Assembly (NCBI RefSeq): GCF_000758165.1
Contig: NZ_JNUP01000072.1
Span: 164,496 to 228,495, forward strand
Length of the DNA stretch: 64,000 nt
Source: Spirochaeta lutea
GTDB taxonomy: Bacteria; Spirochaetota; Spirochaetia; DSM-27196; Salinispiraceae
Reading direction: 5' to 3'
Shown here: positions 44,872-60,959 of the stretch, in pieces
How the letters are laid out: each line of letters begins with the position of its first letter
Position numbering within the stretch: position 1 is the first letter of the stretch
The notes under the pieces: model-generated
Seen by the model: the letters and a program-made list of their open reading frames with translations, nothing else
Told to the model about the DNA's origin: nothing
The model's database searches: none
Position numbers and translations under genes: made by a program

Positions 44872-45885
44872 TCAGCCCTCGAAAACACCCTCCGGACCCG
44901 ATGCCGGTTTTCGCGCCACCACCATGTGCCGCTTAACTCCGAAACCGGGCCGGCGGACTACCTGGAACCCCGCCCGGCGCAGTCCGGCCTTCACCACCCC
45001 GGCCGCACTGTAGGTAACCGCGAATCCCCCGGGCAAGGTTAATGCGCCGACATCCTGCAGCACCTCCGAAGACCACATCTGGGGATTCTTCTCCGGGCTG
45101 TGGCCGTCCAGGAACCAGCCATGGAAGGACACGCCGGAATGGCCTAGGGCCGAGAGCATTCCCTCCACATCACCCTGCCAGAGAGCCAGCCGTACCCGCC
45201 AGCCCCGAAAGTCCCAGGAAGACAGGTGCCACCCCAGCCGCCCCAGTCCAAGCCCCAGTGCCTGGTACCAAGACCGTACATCACCGGGGTTCAGGGCCGA
45301 CAACTCCCCGCTGTCCCAGTAGGGCTGTAGCCATTCTTGCAGTTGGTCCCATTCCAGCGGATACGCATCCACGGACCAGTACCACAACTCTGGCGACTCT
45401 TCCGCCGGATTCTTTCGCTCCCTTGGTTGGCCGCGGAGCCTGTCGACCACATCCCGCTCCTCGGCCGGATTCTGTAAATCCGCCGGTCTACTATGCGCCT
45501 CAGCCGGTTGGCCCTGCGCCTCGGCCGGATTCTGCGATCCAGCCATGGGGTTCTCATTTTCTGCCGGATCTCGCGATCCGGCCGGGCTGCTCTGGACTCC
45601 CGCCGGTCTACTATGCGCCTCGGCCGGTTGGTCCAGCGCGTCTGCCGGCCCCTGGGGCCTCCCCGGGAAGGCACCGGACTGCCGGCTACAGTCAGGTAAG
45701 TGGGTCAGAAGGGCCCAGAGATTCAGGCCGGTGCCGAAGCCCGTCTCACCGATGGTGATTCCCCGGGGGATGTTCAGGTCAAGTCCCGATCCGCGGATGA
45801 ATACGTGGGTAGCCTCGGCAAAGCCGGCTCCGGGGGAGAAGTAGGGATCATCGTAATGGGGATTATAAGGAAAGGAGGTGTTCAT
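44872..45885 (-). CDS. MnmD-type tRNA U34 methyltransferase with a repeat insertion
   Basis: A 337-residue protein of the DUF752/MnmC methyltransferase family, which methylates aminomethyl-(thio)uridine at the tRNA wobble position. Seen: N-terminal FPYNPHYDDPYFSP, SAM motif I IGETGFGTGLNLWALL (about residues 43-58), SVDAYPLEWDQLQEWL, the hallmark FLDGHSPEKNPQMW, and GFGVKRHMVVARKP at the end. The FAD-dependent oxidase half of MnmC is absent, so it is MnmD-like. Between motif I and the acidic strand (about residues 70-165) lies a large non-family insertion of repeated PAE/PAG units. The Rossmann core is intact on both sides, so it may still be active. Divergent from the small protein at 45928. 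Confidence 0.85.
   Translation of the reverse strand: MNTSFPYNPHYDDPYFSPGAGFAEATHVFIRGSGLDLNIPRGITIGETGFGTGLNLWALLTHLPDCSRQSGAFPGRPQGPADALDQPAEAHSRPAGVQSSPAGSRDPAENENPMAGSQNPAEAQGQPAEAHSRPADLQNPAEERDVVDRLRGQPRERKNPAEESPELWYWSVDAYPLEWDQLQEWLQPYWDSGELSALNPGDVRSWYQALGLGLGRLGWHLSSWDFRGWRVRLALWQGDVEGMLSALGHSGVSFHGWFLDGHSPEKNPQMWSSEVLQDVGALTLPGGFAVTYSAAGVVKAGLRRAGFQVVRRPGFGVKRHMVVARKPASGPEGVFEG
45406..45660. repeat. In-frame repeat insertion within the MnmD-like gene
   Basis: About ten diverged units of roughly 21 bp, each encoding PAxxxx plus Q/R/N/S. A 31-bp segment (starting CGCCGGTCTACTATGCGCCT) at 45481-45511 recurs at 45601-45631 with one mismatch, exactly 120 bp later. Confidence 0.85.
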
Positions 45886-48463: not shown

Positions 48464-51400
48464 ATGATACACCCCGGACATAATAATCCCCAGAGCCCTT
48501 CAATAACCCCGGATCCCGTTGATGAGGCCCGGCCCGGATCTTCTGTTGGTTCTTCTGTCGGTTCCTCAGACAGGCACTCCCCGGCGGCCCGGGTTATCCG
48601 CCGGGCCCGGAGGGTGGGTACGGCGGCGGTTATTCTTATTCTTGGCGTTTTGCTGGCAGGCTGCAGCACCGGAAGTCTGCCCCGGGGGGCGGGTGAGCAG
48701 GAGGCAGCCCGTTTTTTGGCCTTCAGTCCGGGACCACGGATCAATCCCGGAGACGGGTTAGTATTCCGGTTTCACCACGAGTACGGCCGGGCGGGAGAAG
48801 CGCTCTCCCAGGATCTGCTTTCCCAGGTGGTAGGGATTCAGGATGTTGGCAGGCTTACCGCCCGGTGGCAGGATGCCCGGACCATGGTGGTCTACCCCGA
48901 AAGCGAGCCCTGGCCCCAGGGCAGGGTCCTGGAGGGCTGGATGAACCTCAGCGCCCTCCATGGCCGGGGCGGGGCGGAACCCTCGGCCGATGTGATTTTT
49001 CGCTTCTCCTCCGAGGTGGCGGTCCAGGGTATTTACCAGAGCCGGTTCAGTCTCGGTCAGGGCCAGGCCGGGGAGGATTTGTATCCCCAGGTCCGGCTTT
49101 CCCTGGGCATTCTGCCCGGGACCGGCGATATTGATTCCGCTCCGGAGCTTTCCTTCCAAACAGCCCGGGGTTCTATTCCGGCCCGGGTGAGCCTGGAGGG
49201 TTCTGAGTTGCTGGTAACCGGTACAAGTCCGATTTCCCGGGGGCAGTCCACCCAGACTCTGGGTATTGAGATCCCCCGGGGTTACCTTGATTTACCCCAG
49301 ACCTGGCAGGCCCAGTGGACGGTTCCCCCCCGGGGAAGCCTCCAGCTGGAAGAGGTCGTGGAGGATGAGGTGCTGGAGCTGGTATTCAGCGAGGATATTG
49401 ATCCGGCTCAGCAGCTTGGCGGGGCCGTGTTTACCACACCGGAAACCGATTTAGTGTTTGAGGTGCGGGGCAATCGAATCATCATTACCCAGGGGCTCGA
49501 ACGGGGCGAGATCTATCAAATTACCATTACCCCTGCCCTCCGGAGCATCTACGGAAGCCGCCTATCCAAGGAACTTACCTTCCAGGGGGGGGTGCCGAAC
49601 CATAAACCCAAGGTCGAGTTTTTACAGAGCGGCTCCATCCTCACCTCCGGAGCGGATTCCCGGATTTACATCCGGACCATGAATCTCCGGGGGCTGAGTG
49701 TCCGGATCCAGGAGGTGTTTGAGAACAATCTGGTTCAGTTCCTTCAGACCCAGAGTCTCGGGGGCGAAATCGACCGCTCCCGGGAATTCGACGGCTACGA
49801 GGTCAACCGGGTGGGCCGTACCCTGGCCAGCCAGGAGCTGGAGATCGGTGAGACCGAAAACGAATGGCTGGTCCACGAGCTTGATTTATCCCCCTTACTA
49901 CCGGATAGCAGCCAGAGCCTCTACCTGGTGTCCCTGGAGTTCGACCGGGAGGATATGATTTGGGAGAGCCCGGAGGATGGTGAGTACCATTACGGAAACG
50001 ATTATTATGAAAACCCCTCCAGCTGGGGCTACCTGTATCAGCATGGCCGGCGCTACAAACCCATCCTGGTAAGCGACCTGGGGCTGACCTTTCTGGCGGG
50101 ACAGCATGACGGGCTTGCCGCTGTCACCCACATACCCGCAGGCACCCCCCTCTCCGGGGCTGAGGTGGAGGTGTACTCCTTCCAGAACCAGGTTATCGCC
50201 CGGGGTAGAACCGACAGCCGTGGTCTGGTCCGCCTTTTCTGGGGCCCGGGGAGCACGGGAACCGGCGGGTCTGGCGCTTCAGGTCCAGGAGCCGGGGATA
50301 GTTCCGGGGCGGCAGGATCTGCCCGAAGCGGGATGGTTACCTCCGGTCCCGGATTACCCGGCCCGAGTGGTGAAGGTCCGACTGCCGCCCCCTTCATCGT
50401 ATTCGCCCGGACCGGAGATTCCCAGGCCGTATTGCCCCTGGACCAGTTCACCTGGAACCTCTCGGGGTTCGATGTGGGGGGGCAGCAGGAAACGCCTTCG
50501 GGGCTCCGGGGCTACCTTTTTACCGAACGGGGGGTGTACCGCCCCGGAGATACGGTCACTCTGTTCTCTGTAATCCGCAACTCCCAGGGAAGTTTTCCTG
50601 ATAACCATCCTGTTACCCTGGAGGTTTTCAACCCCCGGGGACAGCTGTACCTGGAGCGCAGTTCTACCGACGGCAGGGACGGGCTCTACCGGTTTTCCAT
50701 CCCTACCCGGGCAAGTGACCCCACCGGGGGCTACCGGGTCCAGATTCAGGCAGGGGATGCAACCTTTACCCACATTATCCGGGTGGAAACGATTCTGCCA
50801 GACCGTCTGCGCTTATCCATGGATGCTGAGCCCGAGACCTTGGAGCCCCGGGCGGAGCAACTGACGGTGAATCTGACCAGTGAGTACCTCTTCGGCAGTC
50901 CTGCAGCGGGTCTGCCGGGAGAGATCAGCCTTACCGTGGAGGATAGGCCCCTTCGAATCCCCGGCTATGAGGAATTTCATTTCAGTCATCCTACCAAGCC
51001 CTCTCAGCCCTACAGCGAGGTACTGTACTCCGGCCCCTTGGACGAGGGCGGCGGGGTTTCGGTGGATGTAGATATTCCCGTGATGAAAGACCCGCCGGGT
51101 GCCCTGGTATTGGGGTTCTCCGGCCGGGTTACCGAGGCCGGGGGACGGTCGGTCCGGGGCATCACCGCTGTGCCCTACGATCCCTACCATGCCTATGTAG
51201 GAATCCGGGCACCCGATTTTGATTTCGGCTACGCACCCCTGGGGGAAGAGAGCCAATTTCAGATCATCCTTACGGATCCCCGGGGTTCATCCATAGAAAA
51301 CCGGACCCTCCAGTACCGTCTCTATAAAAACGACCGGTATTGGTGGTGGGAATATGACGACTACCGGGATTTCCGCCTGAGTTATAAGAACGACCGGCAT

Positions 51401-54373
51401 ACCCAGGTGGTGAGCCAGGGCACCATAACCACCGGAACCCTGCCCAAAAACCTGGGGCTTACCCCGGATGAGTGGGGCGAGTACATGCTCGAGGTTGAGG
51501 ACCCCCAGGGGCATAGCGCCGGCATCTTCTTCCGGGCAAGCAGCTGGTCAAGCCCGGGGAACGCCCCGGACAGCGGTATCATGGAACTGAAAACCGATAA
51601 AACCAGTTACCGGCCGGGCGACACCGCCCGGGTAACCATCCCCACCACGCGAGACACCCAAATTCTCGTCACCCTCTCCAGGGGCGCCGCCATCCTCGAC
51701 AGCTACTGGTACCCGGCCCAGGGCGGACAGACCGAGATTCCCGTGGAGCTCATGGCCGAGCACGCCCCGGGGGTGTACCTGAGTATCAGCGCGATCCTGC
51801 CCCTGGAAAAGGCGGATTCCGGCCAGGCCCTGCGCCTCTTCGGCGTTAGCCACCTGGAGGTTACCGATCCGGCGACCCGGATTCCCCTAAAAATTCACGC
51901 CCCCGAAACCCTTGAACCCGAGAGCAGGGTGAGCCTGGAGGTAGAAACCGAAACCGGCCGCCCGGCCCAGGTAGTCATTGCCCTGGTGGACGAAGGGCTG
52001 TTGAACCTGACGGGATTTGAAACACCCGATCCATGGAAATCCTTCTACGGAAAACTTGCCCTGGGCGTGCGGGGGGCTGACATGTTCGATCAGGTTATCG
52101 GAGCCTTCCATGACGCGGTGTACCGCCGGTTCTCCATCGGCGGGGGCGAAGGGGAGGAGAGTTTCGCCGCCCGAGCAGCAGCCCCCATGATGGAAGCAGC
52201 CATGGACAAAGCAGGGGGGCAGGAGGAACGGGGGCTTCAGTTTGAGCCCCTCTCCCTGGTCGCCGGGCCCCTGACCACCGATTCCCGCGGCAGGGTTCAG
52301 GCCGAATTCGAGCTACCCAACTATCTGGGATCGGTACGGATCATGGCCGTCGCCCTGGAGGGCATGGCCTTCGGCAGCACCCACATAGACCGCCCGGTTC
52401 AGCGCCCCCTGGTCACCCTACCCTCCCCGCCGCGGTTCCTGGGCCCCGGGGACAGCTTCGAGCTCCCGGTCAGTCTCATACCCCTGGAGAAGGATATCAG
52501 CCAGGTGAGGGTGACCCTGGATTCCAAGGGGATTCTAACGCCGGGCTCTCAAACACGGCTAGTAGACCTCACTCAGAATCAGGGGGGCACCACCATCCTC
52601 CTGCCCCTGACAGCTCCTCTTCAGGTGGGTAGAGCCGACCTGGAACTGGTAGTCGAGTACCGGGATTCAGTGGGTACATCCCGGGAAGACCGGTACCCCC
52701 TCCAGCTGGATGTACAACCCGCAACACCCCAGATCAGCCGCAGCAGTGAGGTGCGGATTCCCCAAGGCGGAACTGAGAATCTGGGTATCCTGGCCGACGG
52801 ACTGCCGGGAACAAACAGCCTCAGCCTTTCGGTTTCCACGGTGCCAAACCTGAACCTGGAAGAACGCCTCTCCTGGCTCCTGGGTTATCCCTACGGATGT
52901 CTTGAACAGACGATTTCTGCGGTCTTTCCCCAGCTCTTTCTTGAGGGTCTGGTGGATCCCCAGGTACTCCAGGAAACCCGGGATCCCCGGGGCCGGTTGC
53001 CTGCCGAGGCAGCCATAGACCGGAACATATCCAGGGCCCTGGAAACCCTAACCCGGTTCCAGCTGCCCAACGGAGGCTTCAGCTACTGGCCCGGACAATC
53101 CGAGGCCAGCCCCTGGGGCACGAACTACGCCGGCGCCTTTCTTCTGGAAGCCAAGGCTGCGGGGCATGAACTTCCCAAGGGTATGATGGAAGGCTGGCTG
53201 GAGTTTCAGTCCATCCGTAGCCGCTCAACCCGGGAAGACATGACCAACCGGGTGTACCGCCTCTACCTGCTCGCCAAGGCGGGAAAACCCGAGATCGCCG
53301 CGATGAACCTTATTCGGGAAACAGCTCTCGGGGAACTAACCGATCCGGAGCTGTGGCTGCTGGCGGGCAGCTACCACCTCTCGGGACTGGAGGACCTCGC
53401 CCGGAGTATCCGGGAGACTGCGGGTACCCGGGTGGCATCCACCGAGGTGGATTACCGGACCTACGGCAGTCCCCAGCGGGACCGGGCCCTAATCCTGGAA
53501 CAGGCCCTAATCCTCGGAGATCAAGAAACAGCCGATAAGCTCTTTGCAGATCTCTCCGCGGATATCGCCTCCCGGACCTGGTACTCAACCCAGACCCTGG
53601 GGTACAGCTTAGCGGCCCTGGGTAAATACCTGGGTATCCAGGGGGATCCACGAGGCGGGACCCAATCAAATCACCCTCAAACCCCCGGCCAAAATCCCAG
53701 CATCCGGCTGAACCTCCCCGGAGGAGGGACCCGGGAGCTTGTGATGTCCGGTCTGCGTTCAACCCTAGACCTGGGAACTGAGGTGTTTCCTTTGGACAAT
53801 CCTGACCAGCCGGTGACCATCGGACTTTCCTACCGGAGCGGGGCAGCACCCCGGGTATTCGCCCGGTTGAGCTGGTCGGGTATCAGCCTGACCAGCCAGG
53901 ATCAAGAACAAACCCAGGGTATGAACCTGGGCATCTCCTGGTTTACCCCCCAGGGTTCACCCCTGGATGTCCGCCAGCTTGACCAGGGCCAGGAATTTTA
54001 CGCCCTCATCCGACTGGCCATGGATAGGGACCGGTTGGAGGAAGCCTACCTGGACTTCGGGATTCCCGGAGGCTGGGAGATTGTGCCCACCCGGCTCACC
54101 GGCGAGGCGCCCCCTGTTTGGGCGGGAAACCTGGAATACGGCACCACCAACCTGCCCGTGGAGTACCAGGATCTCCGGGACGACCGATCCCTCTGGTTCT
54201 TCGACAGCTTCTCCCCGGGGCGCAGCATGCTCTTTCTGGTAAAACTCCAAGCGGTAACCCCGGGACGGTACAGTCTGCCGCCGGTAAGCGCCGGGGGAAT
54301 GTACGACCACCGGTACCGGGCCCTCTACCCCGGAGGGCAGGTGATGGTCCGGGCATCCGAACCGGCACAATGA
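48464..54373 (+). CDS. Bacterial alpha-2-macroglobulin, thioester type
   Basis: A 1969-residue lipoprotein. An unusually long n-region (about 45 residues, containing SSVGSSVGSS) precedes the hydrophobic stretch and lipobox LLAGC (Cys66). MG domains fill the first 1000 residues; RGYLFTERGVYRPGDTV and FELPNYLGSVRIMAVAL are typical of the MG2 and MG10-side regions. The thioester motif GCLEQ is intact (Cys1479), inside a helical complement-like domain (YPYGCLEQTISAVFPQL). The protein should trap attacking proteases in the periplasm or at the surface. Two Ser/Gly-rich linkers (about 595-635, and about 1730-1745) are unusual. The stop overlaps the pbpC start, matching the YfhM-PbpC pair of E. coli. 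Confidence 0.95.
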   Translation: MIHPGHNNPQSPSITPDPVDEARPGSSVGSSVGSSDRHSPAARVIRRARRVGTAAVILILGVLLAGCSTGSLPRGAGEQEAARFLAFSPGPRINPGDGLVFRFHHEYGRAGEALSQDLLSQVVGIQDVGRLTARWQDARTMVVYPESEPWPQGRVLEGWMNLSALHGRGGAEPSADVIFRFSSEVAVQGIYQSRFSLGQGQAGEDLYPQVRLSLGILPGTGDIDSAPELSFQTARGSIPARVSLEGSELLVTGTSPISRGQSTQTLGIEIPRGYLDLPQTWQAQWTVPPRGSLQLEEVVEDEVLELVFSEDIDPAQQLGGAVFTTPETDLVFEVRGNRIIITQGLERGEIYQITITPALRSIYGSRLSKELTFQGGVPNHKPKVEFLQSGSILTSGADSRIYIRTMNLRGLSVRIQEVFENNLVQFLQTQSLGGEIDRSREFDGYEVNRVGRTLASQELEIGETENEWLVHELDLSPLLPDSSQSLYLVSLEFDREDMIWESPEDGEYHYGNDYYENPSSWGYLYQHGRRYKPILVSDLGLTFLAGQHDGLAAVTHIPAGTPLSGAEVEVYSFQNQVIARGRTDSRGLVRLFWGPGSTGTGGSGASGPGAGDSSGAAGSARSGMVTSGPGLPGPSGEGPTAAPFIVFARTGDSQAVLPLDQFTWNLSGFDVGGQQETPSGLRGYLFTERGVYRPGDTVTLFSVIRNSQGSFPDNHPVTLEVFNPRGQLYLERSSTDGRDGLYRFSIPTRASDPTGGYRVQIQAGDATFTHIIRVETILPDRLRLSMDAEPETLEPRAEQLTVNLTSEYLFGSPAAGLPGEISLTVEDRPLRIPGYEEFHFSHPTKPSQPYSEVLYSGPLDEGGGVSVDVDIPVMKDPPGALVLGFSGRVTEAGGRSVRGITAVPYDPYHAYVGIRAPDFDFGYAPLGEESQFQIILTDPRGSSIENRTLQYRLYKNDRYWWWEYDDYRDFRLSYKNDRHTQVVSQGTITTGTLPKNLGLTPDEWGEYMLEVEDPQGHSAGIFFRASSWSSPGNAPDSGIMELKTDKTSYRPGDTARVTIPTTRDTQILVTLSRGAAILDSYWYPAQGGQTEIPVELMAEHAPGVYLSISAILPLEKADSGQALRLFGVSHLEVTDPATRIPLKIHAPETLEPESRVSLEVETETGRPAQVVIALVDEGLLNLTGFETPDPWKSFYGKLALGVRGADMFDQVIGAFHDAVYRRFSIGGGEGEESFAARAAAPMMEAAMDKAGGQEERGLQFEPLSLVAGPLTTDSRGRVQAEFELPNYLGSVRIMAVALEGMAFGSTHIDRPVQRPLVTLPSPPRFLGPGDSFELPVSLIPLEKDISQVRVTLDSKGILTPGSQTRLVDLTQNQGGTTILLPLTAPLQVGRADLELVVEYRDSVGTSREDRYPLQLDVQPATPQISRSSEVRIPQGGTENLGILADGLPGTNSLSLSVSTVPNLNLEERLSWLLGYPYGCLEQTISAVFPQLFLEGLVDPQVLQETRDPRGRLPAEAAIDRNISRALETLTRFQLPNGGFSYWPGQSEASPWGTNYAGAFLLEAKAAGHELPKGMMEGWLEFQSIRSRSTREDMTNRVYRLYLLAKAGKPEIAAMNLIRETALGELTDPELWLLAGSYHLSGLEDLARSIRETAGTRVASTEVDYRTYGSPQRDRALILEQALILGDQETADKLFADLSADIASRTWYSTQTLGYSLAALGKYLGIQGDPRGGTQSNHPQTPGQNPSIRLNLPGGGTRELVMSGLRSTLDLGTEVFPLDNPDQPVTIGLSYRSGAAPRVFARLSWSGISLTSQDQEQTQGMNLGISWFTPQGSPLDVRQLDQGQEFYALIRLAMDRDRLEEAYLDFGIPGGWEIVPTRLTGEAPPVWAGNLEYGTTNLPVEYQDLRDDRSLWFFDSFSPGRSMLFLVKLQAVTPGRYSLPPVSAGGMYDHRYRALYPGGQVMVRASEPAQ

Positions 54374-57347: not shown

Positions 57348-60300
57348 TTATCGGCTCAAGGGCCGGATTACTGGAGTACCGAATTGTCCTCCCAGGTCCG
57401 GGTTTCCCTCCCGTACCTGGGATTCAGTCGCCTGAAGCAGTTCCTTACCGGCCAGAATGGCCCGTCTGCCGGATGTATCCAGGGCCTGGGCAAGACGCTC
57501 CGCCGCCTTCTGTAGATCCCCGGGCTCGGCGGACAGGGTCAGGTCCCGGCGATGTTGACGGATTCGGTCCGATATTCCGTAGAGACTGCGTTTGAACCCT
57601 ACGATTCCCTTTTCTCCCGGGCTCAGGGGTTTGAGTTCCCGGGAGATACTGCCGATTTTCGCCAGATCCAGGCTTGTCCGGTCCAGGGGTGTTGCAGCCA
57701 TGGCCTGAAGGGTTTGACGGTACACCTCCAGGGTCCGGATGGTTTGGGGATCCCGGTATGAGGCAAGACTAAAGATGCCTCCCATCCCGTCGGAGCTGGC
57801 ATGGGCGCCGTACGCCCCTCCCTTCATGCGGATATCCTCCCAGAGTGGTCCGGTCTTCAGTACATGGGCCAAGAGCTGCTCATAGGCCTGTTCGGCGCTG
57901 CCCAAATACGCCCCTGGCATGGCTGCCGCCACGTAGGCCACCTTGGATGGATAGTCCAAGAATTCGGTGCGCTGAAGGGGTTCGGGCAGTTCCATGGCTT
58001 TGAGGGCGGCCTCTGCAGCAGCGGTCACCGAGGCAGGACCAACGGCGGGGTTCCCCGGGGACGATTCCCCTTCGGGGTATCCCGATGCCCGGGCCACCAG
58101 GGCAGGCAATTCCCCCAGCCACCGGGCAAGGGTCGCATCCAGGGCCCGGACCTGCCCGGCCTGGGCGGTTATGTTCAGCTTCACACCCTGGGGGGAGATA
58201 ATCTTCCGGCGAAGGGCTGACAGCGCCTGGGCCAATTCCCAGAGTGCTGGCTGGCCCTCGGGGGTGGACCCCCTGGCCTCCCGTTCCCTGCGCTGGGCGG
58301 CGATCGGCTCTGCCAGCTCCTCCAGGAAGAGGTACTGGGTGAGGCCCCGAAGCCGCTCCTCGGTATCCTGCACCGGATGCAGCCCCGCTTCCGCCCGCAG
58401 GGACGCATAGGAGCTTCCCCCGGGCAGGATGGAAGACTTCATATCGTTGCGCATCTCAAAAAACACCTCGGCCAGGTGATCAAGGTCGGTGAAATCAGCC
58501 TGGGTTACCAGGGATTGAACCCAGCCCAGAGCCTGGGCCGCGGTAGAATCCAGGGCCTTCAACCGGAAAAAGAGGTGGCTGTGTATCCGGGCGGAGCCTG
58601 CTCTGCTCCGGTCACCCTTGGCACCGGCCAGGAGATCCACGCCGGCATTAACCTCGGGATAGGCGGAAAACCCGCCGCTCACCATGGCGAGCTGCCGGCT
58701 CACCTCCTCATACCCCATGCCGGGCAGCCCCGCCGAGGGCACAAAGGCGGCGAAGAGGGGCACCAAGAGCTGCTCCCGGGGGGTGAGTCGGGAGAGATCA
58801 AAGGCGATATCCAGATAGGTAATCCCGTTGGTATAGAGATCGTGGTACCAGACCCTGGCCGGCGCGGCCCCGGAACCCCCTGCTGCAGGCCCCCCGGGGG
58901 TTAAGCCGTCCCCTCCCTGGGTCCGGGGGGATTCAGCGGACCGGGGGGATTCAGCGGACCGGGGGGATTCAGCGGACCGGGTGGGTTCGGCGGACCGGGG
59001 GGATTCAGCGGACCGGGCGGGCGATGCCGGAGATGCGGGTCTGGAGGGTGCTGCCGGCGAGGTGGGCTTGGCGGGTTGGTCAGGAATCCCGGCACCCGGC
59101 CTTGGAACGGTCCGGGGATTCACGCCCCCTTGAGGGGGAACATCAGTTGCCCCGCCGCCATTGGCCTGGGCCCCGTCCGCGCCCCCCCGCTGCCCCTGAG
59201 ACTCCGAGGAGAGACCGCCGAAAATAGGACGCAGTTCGGACTGCTTACCGGGAATTGATTCAACCTCCCGGGGAATATCTGTTACCGATAAGAAGGGGAT
59301 CTTCGCCATATCCTCGGGACTATCAGCCTGGCTTTGAAACGCCTCCAGCTCCACCTGAGCCTTCTGAACGGCAGCTCTGAACGACTCTTTCTCGGCTTCC
59401 GAGAGACCGGCCTCTAGGGAAGCCAGATCCTCGGCTTCTTCCCGGGCTTCCCGCTCGTTCTGCTGGGCATCGGGGTAGACTGTCACCGTGGTCCGATGGG
59501 GATTATCCAACAGATCCTCCTGGATAAGGGTTTCGAGGTAGCGGGTCCCCCCGTCGATCAGGTTACGCAGCTCGGTCATATGCCTCTCAAAGAGAAGACT
59601 ATGCTCAGCCTCGGCCCCATGAAGCCAGGCCCGGGAGAGCTTACGCAGCAGCCGTAACCCGAAGGGACCGCCCCCCTTGATTTCCCGGCTGCGGAACTCA
59701 AATTTTCGTAAAATTCCCTCCACCAGATCGGTATTGAGTCCATCCCGGACAATGCGCCGTAATTCATCCAGGAAAAGGGTCTCAACCTGCTCGGCCTTGT
59801 CGGCTCCGGTACCCTGAATCCCCACTGAAAACACCGTTTCCCGCAGCTCAGATTCAAACCCGCTGGTGGGAGAAAGATCATCCCCCAGGCTGGACTGGCT
59901 TACCAGCTTCTGGAGGGGACTGGCAGCACTGCCCATGAGCACCTCGGTCAACACCTCCCAGCTCAAGAGTCTCAAGCTGTCCTCCACGGGAAACAGCAGC
60001 CAGTTGAGGGTAATGGAACAGGAATCGTCCTGGGAATCCCCCTCCCCGGCTGGATAACTCACCGCCAGGCGGCGCGGCTGGGTCCATCGGGGCTGCAACA
60101 CCAGGGGAGCAACCGGTTCCTGGGCTTCGAACCGGGACAAAAACCGCCGATCCAGGAACTCCAGGTACTCCTCCGTAGGGGTATTCCCGTAGAGGTACAC
60201 CAGGGTATTGGAGGGATGGTAGTATTTTCCATGGAATGCCAGAAAATCCTCATAGGTCAGGTTCGGGATCTCCTTGGGATCCCCCCCGGAATCGTAGGCG

Positions 60301-60866
60301 TAGGGAGTATCGGGGAAGAGCCCCCGGTAACACCATTCCCCCGCCACCGAATCGTGGGTGGAATAATTCCCCTTCATCTCGTTATACACAATCCCGGTCC
60401 GTACCAGCCGTCCGGATTCATCAATCTGCAGCCGGTGCCCCTCCTGATTAAAGAGCTGCTCCTTCAAGAGGGGAAAAAACACCGCATCACCGTACACCTC
60501 CATGAGGTTGAACAGATCCTGCTTAACCGTCGAGCTGGCGGGGTACACCGTTTTATCCGGAAAGGTAAAGGCGTTCAGGAAGGTCTGCATACTACCCTTC
60601 ATCATCAATAAAAAGGGATCCTTCACCGGAAAATCCCGGGAACCGCATAACACGGTATGCTCTAAAATATGGGCAACCCCGTTGGAATTCTCGGGAACCG
60701 TCTTAAACAAAAAGGCAAAAAGATTCTCCGTATCATCGTTTACGGTATGAAAAACCTCACAGCCCGTGGCATCATGCCGGGCAACGACCCCGGTGCTCCG
60801 GTATTCCGGCAAATCCACCAGCCGAGTAATTGTAAAACCATGTATGTTCTGACCTGCTTCAAGCAT
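57348..60866 (-). CDS. M16C zinc metalloprotease, PreP-like, with repeat insertion
   Basis: A 1172-residue peptidasome. The inverted zinc motif HILEH is at residues 66-70 in NGVAHILEHTVLCGS, with the distal Glu region in GIVYNEMKGNYS. The M16C-associated helical segment is at about 480-540. The inactive second half contains VWYHDLYTNGITYLDI and MRNDMKSSILPGG. PreP enzymes degrade peptides inside a closed chamber. Normal length is about 970-1000; the excess is mainly an inserted low-complexity linker at about residues 542-668, with five SAESPR-like repeats, between the two halves. The ATG at 60866 has AAAAGGA before it; an earlier start at 60959 coincides with the -35 box. Confidence 0.93.
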   Translation of the reverse strand: MLEAGQNIHGFTITRLVDLPEYRSTGVVARHDATGCEVFHTVNDDTENLFAFLFKTVPENSNGVAHILEHTVLCGSRDFPVKDPFLLMMKGSMQTFLNAFTFPDKTVYPASSTVKQDLFNLMEVYGDAVFFPLLKEQLFNQEGHRLQIDESGRLVRTGIVYNEMKGNYSTHDSVAGEWCYRGLFPDTPYAYDSGGDPKEIPNLTYEDFLAFHGKYYHPSNTLVYLYGNTPTEEYLEFLDRRFLSRFEAQEPVAPLVLQPRWTQPRRLAVSYPAGEGDSQDDSCSITLNWLLFPVEDSLRLLSWEVLTEVLMGSAASPLQKLVSQSSLGDDLSPTSGFESELRETVFSVGIQGTGADKAEQVETLFLDELRRIVRDGLNTDLVEGILRKFEFRSREIKGGGPFGLRLLRKLSRAWLHGAEAEHSLLFERHMTELRNLIDGGTRYLETLIQEDLLDNPHRTTVTVYPDAQQNEREAREEAEDLASLEAGLSEAEKESFRAAVQKAQVELEAFQSQADSPEDMAKIPFLSVTDIPREVESIPGKQSELRPIFGGLSSESQGQRGGADGAQANGGGATDVPPQGGVNPRTVPRPGAGIPDQPAKPTSPAAPSRPASPASPARSAESPRSAEPTRSAESPRSAESPRSAESPRTQGGDGLTPGGPAAGGSGAAPARVWYHDLYTNGITYLDIAFDLSRLTPREQLLVPLFAAFVPSAGLPGMGYEEVSRQLAMVSGGFSAYPEVNAGVDLLAGAKGDRSRAGSARIHSHLFFRLKALDSTAAQALGWVQSLVTQADFTDLDHLAEVFFEMRNDMKSSILPGGSSYASLRAEAGLHPVQDTEERLRGLTQYLFLEELAEPIAAQRREREARGSTPEGQPALWELAQALSALRRKIISPQGVKLNITAQAGQVRALDATLARWLGELPALVARASGYPEGESSPGNPAVGPASVTAAAEAALKAMELPEPLQRTEFLDYPSKVAYVAAAMPGAYLGSAEQAYEQLLAHVLKTGPLWEDIRMKGGAYGAHASSDGMGGIFSLASYRDPQTIRTLEVYRQTLQAMAATPLDRTSLDLAKIGSISRELKPLSPGEKGIVGFKRSLYGISDRIRQHRRDLTLSAEPGDLQKAAERLAQALDTSGRRAILAGKELLQATESQVREGNPDLGGQFGTPVIRPLSR
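58923..59012. repeat. 18-bp tandem repeat, five units, in the M16 gene
   Basis: Unit CCGGGGGGATTCAGCGGA at 58923, 58941, 58959 and 58995 without change, and a diverged copy at 58977. A decayed sixth copy follows at 59013-59030. It encodes SAESPR per unit on the minus strand. Confidence 0.95.
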
Positions 60867-60929
60867 GTATGTTCCTTTTTTTTCCAAGGTGATTCTCATG
60901 CCCCTCCATCCTGGGAACGGCAATAGATA

Positions 60930-60959
60930 ACCATACTCATTGGCCCCCGCTCCCGTCAA
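60930..60959 (-). promoter_or_regulatory. Promoter of the M16 protease operon
   Basis: Minus-strand TTGACG (60959-60954), an 18-base spacer and TATGGT (60935-60930). The leader to the ATG at 60866 is about 55 bases and carries the ribosome binding site. Confidence 0.5.

Follow-up and report, generated by a model that had tools for sequence, protein, structure and literature searches.

The mnmD gene in the 64,000-nucleotide stretch of Spirochaeta lutea DNA analysed here (the window) raises the question whether the repetitive sequence inside it is a variable element that sets the activity of a tRNA-modifying enzyme, or an addition that the enzyme tolerates. The initial annotation had described an MnmD-like methyltransferase split by an expanding coding minisatellite that could vary between strains and tune its activity. 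The features of the locus, together with a comparable one in the same window, are collected in Table 1.

Table 1. Location of mnmD, its insert and repeats, and the PreP insert in the window
Feature	Position	Strand	Basis
mnmD, stand-alone MnmC2-type tRNA mnm5U34 methyltransferase, 337 aa	44872-45885	(-)	NF033855, PF05430, Foldseek
Lineage-specific repetitive insert in mnmD, ~95 residues, codons 65-164	~45394-45690	(-)	Orthologue alignment, HMM gap, AlphaFold2
31-bp direct repeat copy, nearer the gene 3' end	45480-45510	(-)	30/31 identical to the other copy
31-bp direct repeat copy, nearer the gene 5' end	45600-45630	(-)	Exact core of 22 bp, 45600-45621
P/A/S-rich insert with 18-bp repeats in PreP (M16C peptidase), codons 573-702	58854-59243	(-)	Family comparison

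The enzyme and its insert

The product of mnmD scored 168 bits with the MnmC2 profile NF033855 (curated cut-off 136), which confirmed the proposed identity of the enzyme, and it also matched PF05430 (E 5.6e-29). NF033855 aligned in two pieces, profile positions 1-59 on one side of the insert and 63-208 on the other, and the core was found to continue correctly on both sides, as had been stated before. The AlphaFold2 model, built with 13 sequences, had pLDDT values of 85-97 in most blocks of the core. Foldseek analysis of this model recovered the MnmC2 fold, with 2qy6 (E 5.2e-17), 3ps9 and 3vyw (E 5.8e-8) as the best matches. In E. coli MnmC, Asp-178 is catalytic, Lys-236 binds RNA and Glu-101 binds ribose (PMC3648344). 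In the alignment, D260 of MnmD occupied the Asp-178 position, with G261 and P264 likewise conserved, and K318 the Lys-236 position. The SAM motif I Gly-Phe-Gly-Thr-Gly was kept at G49-F50-G51-T52-G53, as were D13, a further MnmC2 core residue, and the KRHM end motif. Asp173 stands where the ribose-binding Glu-101 is expected, and the relative G001 likewise has Asp there. MnmG, which makes the substrate group of MnmD, is encoded in the same genome. Judged from sequence and model, the catalytic residues are intact and the enzyme is probably working.

In MnmD, 111 residues separate the end of motif I (GLN) from strand b2, as compared to 16 in the nearest member of the family that has the gene. 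The same loop has about 16-24 residues in most MnmD/MnmC2 orthologues, and its length varies elsewhere too. As most relatives have a loop of about 16 residues, the insert was estimated at about 95 residues, which agrees with the size given in the initial annotation; the interval reported there (45406-45660) falls within the insert, and its roughly 300 nt stay open in frame. The insert had been placed right after SAM motif I. It is indeed close to the motif, but one helix of about 13 residues intervenes, and the insert joins this helix (54-67) to the strand at 166-173. The insert peptide is rich in proline, alanine and glutamate, has a net charge of -6, and is predicted to be unstructured, with residues 73-134 at pLDDT below 50. 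Such a connection from helix to strand sits, in Rossmann methyltransferases, at the sheet edge opposite the SAM cofactor. The insert, although near motif I in sequence, is therefore not expected at the active site, and with an unstructured peptide predicted in such a connection the proposal that it tunes activity found no support.

Within the insert we identified eleven PA-type units of 6-7 residues, ten of them starting with Pro-Ala and one with Met-Ala. The units are spaced by 6-7 residues, except for a final gap of 20. The most enriched self-similarity shifts (60, 120, 99, 21, 81 and 39 bases) are all multiples of 3, and the best direct-repeat score was 34 as compared to a maximum of 16 among 200 shuffles of the insert's own codons, so that in-frame units are repeated beyond chance. 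The 31-bp direct repeat noticed earlier was recovered with its copies 120 bp apart, one mismatch and a longest exact run of 22 bp. However, adjacent near-identical units were not found, as Tandem Repeats Finder did not report the array even at score 40. Being too degenerate for this program, the array is regarded as old and worn rather than as a clean or fresh minisatellite. The term minisatellite thus fits the in-frame repetition and not the present state of the array, and the word expanding found no support, because the units have diverged and one 31-bp pair alone is still nearly identical. This remaining pair predicts one specific possible change, in which 40 codons (120 bp) would be gained or lost. 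The third base of the Ala codon in the Pro-Ala anchor takes all four bases across the units while the anchor itself is kept, so the insert peptide could be under weak selection, which counts against reading the insert as near-neutral.

Relatives and comparable inserts in the genome

The same fixed insertion was looked for in relatives and found in none with an assembled gene: Salinispira pacifica (G002) and G001, both of the same family, and the order member G007 have mnmD without it. In the family member G003 the gene is interrupted by the contig end. Since none of the three family or order relatives whose mnmD is assembled has the insert, we consider it lineage-specific, its presence being known from one genome of S. 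lutea, the sole representative of its genus in the comparison. The genes of S. lutea and G001 are orthologous, since the MarC-like neighbour of mnmD is retained in G001. A survey of 393 genomes of the phylum gave an mnmD match in 134, and among the matches listed the only other within-gene splits concerned G273, where the copy is frameshifted, and G240, where it meets a contig edge. In S. pacifica we also observed a 624-aa frame (L003:1264-3138; G002:C1 ~755.4-757.3 kb) in which an MnmC2 domain is joined to a DNA methylase domain (N6_N4_Mtase, PF01555, E 6.6e-45); for MnmC2 this is an unusual partner in place of the MnmC1 oxidase.

Similar inserts were found in other conserved enzymes of S. 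lutea. PreP (window 57354-60959) has 1202 aa, as compared to 1037-1050 aa in family members, which lack its repeat-rich insert of about 120 residues and show a gap at 572-702. The beta-galactosidase LacZ (L064:8471-12100) carries about 83 extra residues at about 1049-1132 that are missing in G001; they are Gly/Ser/Pro-rich and repetitive, and lie within the small-chain domain. Comparable arrays were also present in a short-chain dehydrogenase and, at the N-terminus, in a peptidase and two transporters. A unit common to the mnmD and PreP arrays was considered and rejected because the units differ, and the units of the mnmD, PreP and LacZ inserts are all unrelated to one another. The mnmD insert is therefore nothing special to tRNA modification. 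Repeat inserts in housekeeping genes seem to be a general feature of these spirochaete genomes and should not be taken as evidence of regulation.

The coding repeats were counted over about 646 kb of the genome, sampled in stretches, in ORFs called mechanically, a few of which may not be genes. They occurred in 14 of 475 ORFs in S. lutea and 6 of 471 in S. pacifica, which is not a significant difference (Fisher p = 0.11), and in 2 of 347 in G007 (p = 0.02). The excess in S. lutea is modest, which counts against the explanation that we prefer below. The best-hit pairs available for judging a systematic insertion asymmetry were few (11, 21 and 17). Two further observations were made in this genome. 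At L055:496-711 (G000 contig C69, ~40.5-40.7 kb) an 18-bp coding unit (EELEEA) is repeated twelve times with 96% matches; as a candidate for a live variable repeat it is much superior to the mnmD array. In the window at 48464-54373, a putative alpha-2-macroglobulin-like ORF of 1969 aa, recognised by eye, has a Gly/Ser/Pro-rich low-complexity stretch in mid-protein (GSTGTGGSGASGPGAGDSSG...).

Origin of the insert

We consider it likely that this is a working MnmD with a coding minisatellite, born by slippage or recombination in a length-tolerant surface loop and now degraded, that has little effect on catalysis. Slippage or unequal recombination would have enlarged the in-frame minisatellite in a surface loop that connects the motif I helix with strand b2 and presumably tolerates changes in length, and point mutations would later have degraded the repeat. 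The outcome would be a disordered loop rich in proline, alanine and glutamate, most likely of little consequence for catalysis. Slippage would account for the repeats themselves, and the insert is probably near-neutral. Because other ordinary enzymes of this bacterium hold similar repeat-filled loops, the insert seems to be genetic padding that is tolerated, and not a switch.

The insert might instead be a selected, functional disordered arm, for example one that tethers tRNA or a partner protein, or an adaptation to the cell interior. The Pro-Ala anchor, retained despite the silent third-base variation, is consistent with this. Arg-94 and Leu-95 of E. coli MnmC, just before the equivalent strand, are reported to lie in or close to the contact surface with the MnmC1 oxidase (PMC3648344), so this face could host a partner; the absence of the MnmC1 domain from the stand-alone MnmD may have freed the loop to grow. 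However, relatives that also have a stand-alone MnmD do without the insert, unrelated enzymes of the genome carry compositionally similar ones, and the net charge is negative, not positive as expected of an RNA-binding arm. We regard a functional arm as rather unlikely. Even less probable is a currently hypervariable VNTR, with a number of copies that varies from strain to strain and thereby tunes MnmD activity. The 31-bp near-exact repeat with its 22-bp exact core could delete or duplicate the intervening 40 codons in frame, and the repeat content of the same loop differs between species in an Alteromonadaceae genus (see below). The array is nevertheless too degenerate for Tandem Repeats Finder, with units of 6-7 codons and many substitutions. 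Frame-preserving changes cannot switch mnmD on and off, and an effect on the activity found no support.

An in-frame insertion within a conserved gene, with a partial dyad in its unit, would also be expected of a dispersed mobile repeat like the Rickettsia palindromic elements. A search of the insert DNA against its own genome matched the mnmD locus only, with no second copy. As the insert matches nowhere else and the units in PreP and LacZ are unrelated, it is not a spreading element; this origin is largely refuted and retains a minimal probability. An assembly artefact is just as hard to credit. The genome is a draft of 69 contigs, but the units are diverged rather than identical, the frame is open for 300 nt and the core is continuous on both sides.

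Comparison with known systems

The MnmD of Aquifex aeolicus (3vyw) and the MnmC2 domain of E. coli MnmC (2qy6/3ps9) have in common with the present enzyme the Rossmann core, motif I, the catalytic Asp, the RNA-binding Lys and KRHM. MnmD of S. lutea differs from them in having about 95 more residues after the motif I helix and before the next strand, which are repetitive and probably disordered, and, as does G001, in the Asp that replaces Glu at the ribose-binding position.

A parallel was found in another phylum. Among four genomes of an Alteromonadaceae genus, this loop of MnmC contains coding repeats of 12 bp in two of the four species and none in the other two, the units being NKAQ in one species and NNKQ in the other (L017, L019; L102, L103). 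As in MnmD, the loop holds tandemly repeated coding sequence, but the units are short (12 bp), there are about 20 extra residues at most, and the enzyme is bifunctional (FAD domain confirmed in L019). As the sequences are unrelated, the loop repeats of Alteromonadaceae and S. lutea are independent in origin, and a loop that takes up repeats independently in another phylum points to a permissive site. Recurrent repeat growth at one MnmC2 loop is a modest point of interest and the most interesting by-product of this analysis. That this helix-to-strand loop is a recurrent repeat hot spot whose length modulates the handling of tRNA or of the partner domain, and so provides a heritable setting of wobble-uridine modification, is a speculation that we find very doubtful.

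Bacterial intragenic coding minisatellites have units in multiples of 3 bp and a disordered low-complexity product. The mnmD array shares both properties, but it is degenerate and, instead of a surface protein, affects the catalytic domain of a housekeeping enzyme. Rickettsia palindromic elements are in-gene insertions that add extra peptide to conserved genes at tolerated sites. The mnmD insert resembles them in this, but lacks dispersed copies of its unit in the genome. No report of repeats in MnmD was found in the open-access literature. Both the MnmD family and the repeat phenomenon are already known; the locus adds one more example, unusual in how large an insert the catalytic domain of a housekeeping enzyme has taken up, and is a clear natural case of a conserved RNA-modifying enzyme that tolerates a large repetitive insert there.
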